From Bryobacteraceae bacterium (GTDB lineage: Bacteria > Acidobacteriota > Terriglobia > Bryobacterales > Bryobacteraceae): a stretch of 40,978 nucleotides of DNA. The stretch lies in assembly GCA_030041035.1 (NCBI GenBank), contig JASHOO010000055.1, forward strand, positions 1-40,978, written 5' to 3'. Both the position numbers and the translations under genes were made by a program. How positions within the stretch are numbered: position 1 is the first letter of the stretch; every line of letters starts with the position of its first letter. Below are positions 1,284 through 3,490 of this stretch, in pieces. Below the pieces are notes generated by a model. It was not told where the DNA came from, searched no databases, and worked only from the letters and a program-made list of their open reading frames with translations.

Positions 1284-2543
1284 GTGCTGTTCAACATCGC
1301 GGCGGTTGTAGGGATTCGCTGGCTGGCCGCGGCTGCGCACACCGGACCGGGGTCCGTCACACTCTGGCTGCTGGCTGCCGGCCTGTTCTTCGTTCCTTCG
1401 GCACTCACCGTGTCCGCGCTCTCGCGCCGCTTTCCGCAGGAAGGCGGAATTTACGTCTGGACGCGCCAGGCGTTCGGAGACTGGCACGGATTCCTGTGCG
1501 GTTGGTGCTACTGGGTAAGCAACCTATTCTACTTTCCCGGTCTGCTGCTGGCCGGCGTCGGCATGGCGGCAAGCGCACTCGGCTTTGCTGAAAATCGGAT
1601 CGCGATCGTCGCGATTTCGCTCGTGGTGCTCTGGATCGCCTCCATCACCAACATCTACGGGCTGGGCATCGGCAAGTGGACGGGCAATATCGGCGCGCTT
1701 TCCACCTGCCTCACAGGCGTACTGTTGATCGCGCTGGGCGCCATCGTGTGGCGCCACAGCGGCTCAGCCACGCCCATGCGCATCCTACCCGAATGGAACC
1801 TCGACCGGCTCAACTTCTGGTCGCAGATCGCGTTCGCGTTCGGTGGGCTCGAACTGGCCGCGATTATGGGCGGCGAAATCCGCAATCCGCAAAAGACCAT
1901 CCCCCGTGCGGCATGGATGGCAGGCCTCGCCATCGCCGCATTCTACATCGCCGGCACGGTGGCGATCCTGGTGCTGCTGCCACCCTACCGCGTGAGCATT
2001 GTCACCGGAATTGTGCAGGCGGCGGATGTGGCCGGCACAAGGCTGGGAATTCAGTGGCCGCCCGCTGCCATCGCGGCAGCAGTCTGCGTGGGTGTGACGG
2101 GACAGCTCGCGGTGTGGATCGCCGGAACCGCGCGCCTGCCTTTCGTCATCGGCATTGATCATTACCTGCCGCCGGTTTTCACCCGGTTGCACCCGCGTTG
2201 GGGGACGCCGCACCTTTCGATTCTGATCTTGACCGGGGCCTGCACGGTATTCGTCATCCTGATGCAGGCGGGCGAGAACCTGCGCATCGGCTACCAGTTG
2301 CTGGTGGACATGACGGTGATCCTGTACTTCGTTCCGTTCCTCTATTTGTTCGGTGCCGCCTGGAGATGCGGCGAACGGCTGAGTGCCGCAGCCGGGCTGC
2401 TGGTAACGCTGCTGGCCCTGGCACTCTCGTTCGCGCCGCCGCCGGACGTTTCTTCGATTCTGGTGTTTGAAGGGAAACTGGCTGGTGGGTTTGTGGTGCT
2501 GGCAATTGGGGCGAGGCTTTGTTTTCAGAGATATAGGTCTTAG
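1284..2543 (+). CDS. APC-superfamily amino acid/polyamine permease (5' end uncertain)
   Basis: The 419-residue frame has about 12 hydrophobic segments. It shows APC hallmarks: a first helix with AAVVGIRWLAAAAHTGPGS, then FPQEGGIYVWTRQAFGDWHGF, and the helix 6 area FAFGGLELAAIMGGEIRNPQ, matching the F(A)FxGxE…xExxNP pattern. It should exchange or import amino acids or related amines with protons. The assigned GTG at 1284 cuts off conserved residues that are readable in frame back to about 1227. The true start may be a non-ATG codon or the frame-shifted ATG at 1177. The next promoter begins directly after its TAG stop. Confidence 0.85.
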   Translation: MLFNIAAVVGIRWLAAAAHTGPGSVTLWLLAAGLFFVPSALTVSALSRRFPQEGGIYVWTRQAFGDWHGFLCGWCYWVSNLFYFPGLLLAGVGMAASALGFAENRIAIVAISLVVLWIASITNIYGLGIGKWTGNIGALSTCLTGVLLIALGAIVWRHSGSATPMRILPEWNLDRLNFWSQIAFAFGGLELAAIMGGEIRNPQKTIPRAAWMAGLAIAAFYIAGTVAILVLLPPYRVSIVTGIVQAADVAGTRLGIQWPPAAIAAAVCVGVTGQLAVWIAGTARLPFVIGIDHYLPPVFTRLHPRWGTPHLSILILTGACTVFVILMQAGENLRIGYQLLVDMTVILYFVPFLYLFGAAWRCGERLSAAAGLLVTLLALALSFAPPPDVSSILVFEGKLAGGFVVLAIGARLCFQRYRS

Positions 2544-2551
2544 TTGCATTA

Positions 2552-2609
2552 ATGCATTTTTATGCATGATAATTTGTTGACATGCATGCATTTCTGGGGC
2601 ATAATGCAT
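2552..2609. repeat. Cluster of five ATGCAT palindromes, probable operator
   Basis: ATGCAT occurs at 2552-2557, 2562-2567, 2582-2587, 2586-2591 (overlapping) and 2604-2609, with a TTGCAT half-match at 2545-2550. Five copies of a 6-bp palindrome in 58 bp of GC-rich DNA is far above chance. They straddle the -35, spacer and -10 of the promoter at 2577-2605. That is the layout of an autoregulated operator bound by a dimeric repressor, as in toxin-antitoxin operons. Which protein binds is inference. Confidence 0.7.
2577..2605 (+). promoter_or_regulatory. Near-consensus sigma-70 promoter of the PIN unit
   Basis: TTGACA (2577-2582), a 17-nt spacer and CATAAT (2600-2605) make an 11/12 match to the housekeeping promoter consensus. 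Transcription would begin near 2612, about 19 nt before the ATG at 2631. It has the best promoter match I found in the window, and it is overlaid by the ATGCAT cluster, suggesting a strong, repressed promoter. Confidence 0.75.
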
Positions 2610-2630
2610 TGCAGAGGGCCTGGAGTCAAA

Positions 2631-3068
2631 ATGTCGAACGCGAATCCGGAGATCCTTTCGGAATCTGACAAGGTGCGGCACTACGTTGAGGTTCATTACC
2701 TGGAGCCCGCCAGGAAACGCGGCGACCGCGCTGTTACGGTTGTGGCTGGGGATATTCACCGTGCTCTTGGCCTGGTCAATCGTGTTCCGCTGGTGTGTAG
2801 TTCACTCAAGTTACGGCGTTTTCACGAAGCCAACCACGTGGTTTTGAGCGATGTGAGTGGGCCACGGTCCAAGCTCAGTACGACCGCACGCTTCACGTTC
2901 ACCTTCGTTCCAGGAGATGCTCGCCAGACTGAGAAACCAAGAAATCCATTCTGGGATCTCCGGGGGATTGCGAAAGGCCTGTTTGAGAAGCCCGGAGACT
3001 GGGAAGCCTCCATTAGAAAAGATCGCGAGGAGATGACTGAAGCCTGCGACAAGCTGTGGCGCCGGTGA
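2631..3068 (+). CDS. Conserved protein of unknown function upstream of PIN toxin (candidate antitoxin)
   Basis: This 145-aa soluble protein has no signal peptide. I chose the ATG at 2631, which has GGAG at 2622-2625; the earlier in-frame start at 2562 lies upstream of the promoter. The core is GDIHRALGLVNRVPLVCSSL (residues 40-59), followed by a GPRSKLSTTARFTFTF strand-like segment (78-92) and a charged, helical C-terminus. From memory, a GDIHxxLGLxNRxPxVCSxL block recurs in small uncharacterised bacterial proteins, sometimes near restriction genes; I cannot name the family. It overlaps the PIN gene by 4 nt (GTGA), so the two are translated together, which suggests antitoxin or partner. It resembles no VapB fold I recognise (no AbrB, MetJ/CopG or Phd signature). 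Confidence 0.65.
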   Translation: MSNANPEILSESDKVRHYVEVHYLEPARKRGDRAVTVVAGDIHRALGLVNRVPLVCSSLKLRRFHEANHVVLSDVSGPRSKLSTTARFTFTFVPGDARQTEKPRNPFWDLRGIAKGLFEKPGDWEASIRKDREEMTEACDKLWRR

Positions 3069-3490
3069 GCCGGATTTACTGGGACAGCATGCTCTTCGTG
3101 TATTGGTTCGAGGAGCACCCTGCCTACATAGAGCGAATGCAGCATATTCTCACCCGAATGGAGCTGCGAAACGATACGCTCTGCACCAGCTCTTTTGCAG
3201 TGGGCGAGGTGTTAGTCGGTCCTTATAAGAGGGGAGCGCCTGACGCGGCCGGCCGTATTCGAGAGACGCTCCGCCCTCCGTTTGCCGAAGTGCTTCCCTT
3301 CACCAACGATGCCGCGGATCACTACGCGCGGATTCGGGCCGAGCTGGATGTTTCGTCTAGTGACGCAATTCACTTAGCGTGTGCGGCGCATGCCGGAGTC
3401 GACCTTTTCCTAACGAATGACCGGAAATTGGTGGGCAAGATCGTTCCCGGCATTCAATTCATCGCGGGACTCGACTCCGACATCCTTTAG
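3065..3490 (+). CDS. PIN-domain ribonuclease, VapC-like
   Basis: The product is about 141 aa, the usual VapC size. Acidic PIN residues are in place, numbered from GTG 3065: Asp7 in RIYWDSM, Glu48 in AVGEVLVG, Asp100 in SSSDAIHLACA and Asp119 in LFLTNDRKL. These bind Mg2+ or Mn2+ for single-strand RNA cleavage. GTG at 3065 gives the GTGA overlap with the upstream stop and a canonical start, MSRIYWD; GTG at 3056 is a possible alternative. VapC toxins usually cut tRNA or rRNA and are held inactive by the protein encoded just upstream. A truncated relative lies at 18584-18835. Confidence 0.85.
   Translation: MSRIYWDSMLFVYWFEEHPAYIERMQHILTRMELRNDTLCTSSFAVGEVLVGPYKRGAPDAAGRIRETLRPPFAEVLPFTNDAADHYARIRAELDVSSSDAIHLACAAHAGVDLFLTNDRKLVGKIVPGIQFIAGLDSDIL

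Follow-up and report, generated by a model that had tools for sequence, protein, structure and literature searches.

A candidate autoregulated VapC-like toxin-antitoxin operon in Acidobacteriota with a predicted winged-helix antitoxin and an array of short promoter words

The 40,978-nucleotide stretch of DNA analysed here (the window) carries, close to its left end, a promoter studded with short repeated words, followed by two small overlapping genes. With a probability of roughly 80%, as judged from sequence comparison and structure prediction, this unit is a type II toxin-antitoxin operon that regulates itself, in which a VapC-like toxin is paired with a winged-helix antitoxin that reads the words in its own promoter. 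On the antitoxin side, the best reading of the structural models is a winged-helix family so far undescribed, and not one of the catalogued VapB types. An autoregulated operon of this kind had been put forward as a candidate in a first-pass annotation, and it now has comparative support from a conserved gene pair, a predicted winged helix-turn-helix and repeat arrays over the homologous promoters.

The operator-like array spans positions 2544–2611, starting directly 3′ of the stop codon of an amino-acid permease gene (1284–2543), and contains 12 GCAT/ATGC words, the first at 2546 and another at 2599, five ATGCAT palindromes being among them. A direct search of the sequence places the starts of these palindromes at 2552, 2562, 2582, 2586 and 2604, which amounts to five copies in 58 bp with start-to-start spacings of 10, 20, 4 and 18 bp. 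Taken as blocks, the ATGCAT copies are centred at 2554.5, 2564.5, 2586.5 and 2606.5 and so lie 10, 22 and 20 bp apart. The array overlies a sigma-70-like promoter on the forward strand (2577–2605), with a TTGACA box at 2577–2582 and a CATAAT box at 2600–2605 that together match 11 of 12 consensus positions, and the 17-nt spacer between them contains ATGCATGCAT. Direct reading of the sequence thus confirms what the first-pass annotation had claimed of the five palindromes, their spacing and the promoter beneath them. The window as a whole holds seven ATGCAT copies, compared with 11 expected from dinucleotide shuffles. Among 200,000 random sequences matched to the base composition of the region, at least three copies occurred with a frequency of 1e-5 and at least four never. 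Moreover, a trio of ATGCATs separated by gaps no longer than 30 bp was found at no other site of the 6.85-Mb genome, and a reversed control pattern likewise gave none.

The first gene of the pair, gene A (2631–3068, forward strand), encodes a 145-residue candidate antitoxin and repressor. Its ATG at 2631 was preferred as the start codon because a GGAG, the likely ribosome-binding site, lies at 2622–2625 on the same strand; a longer in-frame start at 2562 falls within the array and was ruled out by the starts of homologues. Gene A has no match in Pfam, NCBIfam or PADLOC, which rules out a known antitoxin of those collections, and a sequence search of the PDB gave no significant match. When 63 homologues were scanned singly, a few weak family matches were returned (E > 0.01), each common to at most three members, and none of the 63 matched the catalogued VapB families (RHH, AbrB, Phd) in Pfam or NCBIfam. 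A search of open-licence papers found no description of this antitoxin family.

An AlphaFold2 model of gene A, built with 63 sequences, consists of a winged helix-turn-helix that a flexible linker joins to a pair of C-terminal helices. The winged-helix ‘reader’ domain (residues 11–92; forward strand, 2661–2906) is modelled with a pLDDT above 90 nearly throughout and has a putative recognition helix at residues 52–60. With Foldseek alone, no match reached E < 0.001. Structural comparison returned many winged-helix proteins, the closest being the DNA-binding domain of the CtsR repressor (3h0d; Z 7.7, rmsd 2.8, 72 residues aligned), a likeness for which no sequence relation is shown and which, at a Z below 8, may reflect just the common winged helix-turn-helix arrangement. 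The C-terminal tail (residues 104–145; forward strand, 2940–3065) is the likely toxin-binding part. Indeed, the only two residues of gene A that are fully invariant among the 63 homologues, G112 and R132, are both in the tail, and at three loci short tail-only proteins that have no reader domain sit directly before PIN genes. From the invariant tail residues, the predicted fold and these tail-only partners, the architecture of gene A fits a neutralising tail joined to a separable DNA-binding domain. The tail-only proteins are located at L025:1498–1707, L136:1623–1823 and L137:1305–1610, and no obvious array was found at these loci. Orphan antitoxin tails with no adjoining PIN gene were also seen, at L024:1459–1683, L133:1561–1686, L134:1486–1692 and L135:1517–1735.

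The second gene (3065–3490, forward strand) encodes a 141-residue PIN-domain protein (PF01850, E 8e-16). A GTG start at 3065, which gives a GTGA overlap with gene A, is better than a GTG at 3056. In the numbering that follows from this start, all 30 sequences of an alignment have the acidic residues D7, E48, D100 and D119, so that the two overlapping genes and the four PIN acidic residues of the second, as first annotated, both hold. The AlphaFold model of the protein has a pLDDT of 96.5 and its best matches are VapC toxins, the top one being VapBC2 of Rickettsia felis (Z 16.4, rmsd 2.2, 126 residues aligned). The protein therefore has both the PIN fold and the four conserved acidic residues of a VapC; with the NCBIfam equivalog for the tRNA(fMet)-specific VapC endonuclease it scores 24.8 bits against a cut-off of 140. 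The fold and the conserved catalytic residues suggest that it is a VapC-like ribonuclease toxin.

The first gene A profile was too divergent for a scan of genome contigs, and a PIN alignment was used instead. With one genome per species this yielded 80 loci, nearly all from Acidobacteriota and most of them metagenome-assembled. Gene A lies directly upstream of the PIN gene in 75 of the 80, with a 4-nt overlap in 65. In the remaining five, gene A is split in two frames (L088), only the tail is present (L109 and L115), or the PIN gene has no partner (two loci, one of them at a contig edge). These are adjacent, co-oriented and usually overlapping small genes that are kept as a pair, as is typical of type II toxin-antitoxin systems. 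The distribution of gene A is patchy. A single-sequence search found it in 8 of 101 near relatives; a profile search of 399 genomes from the class found it in 50, where some matches cover only part of the gene. One genome of the same genus has the pair at the same place, between the permease and ABC-F genes that flank it in the window; another has a different gene after the permease and no gene A. No match to gene A was found in phage records and no relative of the PIN protein in viral contigs, while plasmids gave only partial, McrB-like matches to gene A and distant cyanobacterial PIN proteins.

Repeat arrays are a recurrent feature of the homologous promoters. Repeated 5-mers in the 90 bp before gene A reached p ≤ 0.05 against shuffles at 35 of 96 loci, compared with 9 of 136 control upstream regions taken from the same contigs. 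A single 5-mer was present at least four times in 29/88 gene A promoters versus 4/136 controls, and at least six times in 5/88 versus 0/136; the promoter of the window has 11 copies. In the shuffle test about two thirds of gene A loci had no significant repeat, which is partly attributable to the automatic choice of start codons and promoters. In the largest clade the words peak between −60 and −20 from the start of gene A, the expected place of a promoter, and in the window and several other loci they lie between TTGAC and the −10 box. ATGCAT itself occurs in the 100 bp before gene A at 18 of 88 loci and is 22-fold denser there than elsewhere in the same loci (29.5 versus 1.3 per 10 kb). The expectation that homologous pairs would be preceded by ATGCAT arrays is thus borne out as regards the arrays and not as regards the word, since other subfamilies differ: judged by these promoters, ATGCAT is the word of this locus and not a family-wide operator.

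The words differ by antitoxin subfamily, the main ones being ATGC/TAGCA, AGACAG and ATGTATG; one or two loci have AGAATTCTA or GGTA instead. When reader clades were cut at a fixed distance from the reader-domain alignment alone, TAGCA (two or more copies) was found at 21/50 loci of the largest clade versus 0/38 others, AGACAG at 6/17 loci of another clade versus 0/71 others, and ATGTA at 6/11 loci of a third versus 8/77 others; the P values of these associations take account neither of the non-independence of loci nor of the choice of the best words among many. Individual loci are instructive. L060 and L061 have toxins that are 89% identical, tails that are 79% identical and readers that are only 51% identical, and their promoter words are ATGCATGC and AGAATTCTA, respectively; L061 and L071, with readers 74% identical, have the AGAATTCTA word in common. 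Similarly, L130 resembles most of its reader group in the reader (61–71% identity) and in carrying the AATGTATGTATG word, while the toxins are 39–45% identical. Among discordant pairs of loci, promoters with the same reader and different toxins were more alike than those with the same toxin and different readers (k = 5 and 6, permutation p = 0.001). The partial correlations with promoter similarity were r 0.128 for the toxin and 0.072 for the reader. Overall, the promoter word appears to follow the DNA-binding domain of the antitoxin more than the toxin. As the reader adjoins the promoter, recombination could carry the two jointly by linkage, and the association of word and reader may partly reflect shared descent; linkage does not account for the repetition of a word within a promoter. 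The reader subgroup to which the locus in the window belongs comprises four loci, the other members of which have little ATGC. At L049, the 60 bp before the gene A homologue contain GGTAGGTAAGGTAGGTAGGTAAGG where close reader relatives have AATGTATG, and this locus is a candidate for a recent change of specificity.

In the mechanism proposed for the operon, the conserved tail of gene A, which in some relatives is the whole partner, would bind and block the PIN toxin, and the N-terminal winged helix would bind the GCAT/ATGC words of the promoter, as suggested by the array itself and by the parallel changes in array and reader. Several A or A-PIN units, placed next to one another at roughly one- and two-turn spacing, would then cover the −35 box, the spacer and the −10 box and repress the operon, and loss of A would release both toxin and promoter. 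The concerted change of reader and promoter word among relatives points to a private operator code for each locus. Much of this resembles the VapBC systems of Shigella (PMC3384007), Neisseria (FitAB) and Rickettsia (VapBC2), which share a PIN toxin with four acidic residues and the VapC fold, an upstream and overlapping antitoxin gene, operator sites over the −35 and −10 boxes, and an antitoxin made of an N-terminal DNA-binding part and a C-terminal tail. In classical VapBC this tail wraps around VapC (PMC3384007). Two features set the present system apart from VapBC: the antitoxin, for which a winged helix is predicted, matches none of the VapB families (RHH, AbrB), and the operator, made up of short arrayed words, varies between loci. 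The modular antitoxins of NetFlax, as far as passages of that study describe them, are also comparable, for DNA-binding and neutralising modules recombine and PIN toxins are found with diverse antitoxins (PMC10440598). The gene A family may be among its unnamed nodes; operator words do not appear in those passages.

The reader domain has other homes. On Klebsiella and Caulobacter plasmids, McrB-like proteins with an McrC partner have, immediately N-terminal to their AAA part, a stretch of about 85 residues that matches the reader with 36% identity by tblastn (E 1e-9 to 2e-9; 80 residues in the profile alignment). The McrB-like proteins of type IV restriction thus carry a homologue of the gene A reader as their N-terminal domain, which by this homology would also read DNA. 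The domain precedes the AAA domain of McrB-like proteins at L009:3689–3931 and L010:5016–5258, where no Pfam model covers it, and no obvious repeat arrays were found upstream of two McrB-like genes. At L015:1501–1749 it is fused to the C-terminus of a protein that resembles Swt1-HEPN (a weak Pfam match below the cut-off), possibly another toxin or defence context. It also forms the C-terminus of an unclassified 367-residue protein (L023:655–1758). A stand-alone reader at L022:1471–1770 adjoins an ORF with a DGQHR motif (1805–3244), which we take to be DndB-like.

These relatives lend some weight to the view that gene A and the PIN protein form a defence nuclease, and not an addiction or stress toxin-antitoxin system: A would search incoming DNA for short words or modified bases, as the McrB domain may do, and would recruit the PIN nuclease or set it free, the promoter array serving only for self-control. 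In favour of it, the reader also occurs in AAA proteins of the McrB type partnered by McrC and in the Swt1-HEPN-like protein. This reading is nevertheless unlikely. Unlike in McrBC, gene A stands alone with a PIN partner: neither an AAA GTPase nor an McrC nuclease is encoded beside it, and its neighbours are the permease, PIN and ABC-F genes. In addition, the PIN model matches VapC toxins best, tail-only partners persist where the reader is absent, and PADLOC gave no match.

Somewhat less probable still is that A does no more than neutralise the toxin, and that the array is bound by a different regulator or by the PIN protein. A toxin that binds DNA has a precedent, as in H. influenzae VapBC-1 the DNA-binding activity resides in the toxin and not the antitoxin, according to a review (PMC4803016), and the partial correlation of the promoter words with the PIN protein is not zero. 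The predicted winged helix of A, the different words of near-identical toxins where readers differ, and the tail-only partners with no obvious array all argue the other way. Finally, restriction systems use 6-bp palindromes like ATGCAT, and the cluster might mark a methylation or restriction site or have arisen by chance in an AT-rich intergenic region, but this is very improbable. ATGCAT is not avoided elsewhere (62 observed versus 56 expected in 461 kb), which rules out restriction or methylation avoidance; the random-sequence simulation and the genome-wide search rule out chance and base composition; and homologous promoters repeat other words, which are often non-palindromic.

If the reading as an autoregulated toxin-antitoxin operon is true, gene A would represent a new antitoxin family for VapC-like toxins, absent from Pfam and NCBIfam and found mainly in Acidobacteriota. 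It would also provide a natural series of dozens of loci where the operator varies along with the DNA-binding domain while the toxin is often nearly constant, and this co-variation makes the specificity of a small winged helix directly testable. Because the word changes with the antitoxin in relatives, the probable target of an antitoxin can be guessed from its genome, and because the reader is also part of restriction proteins of the McrB type, the promoter words give an initial idea of what those proteins may recognise. A broader view, which we hold tentatively and at a little short of even odds, is that gene A belongs to an undescribed, fast-diversifying family of short-word DNA readers common to toxin-antitoxin operons and McrB-like systems. 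Each toxin-antitoxin promoter would then spell the word of its reader, and the protein-to-DNA code of the whole family, restriction members included, could be read from genomes.
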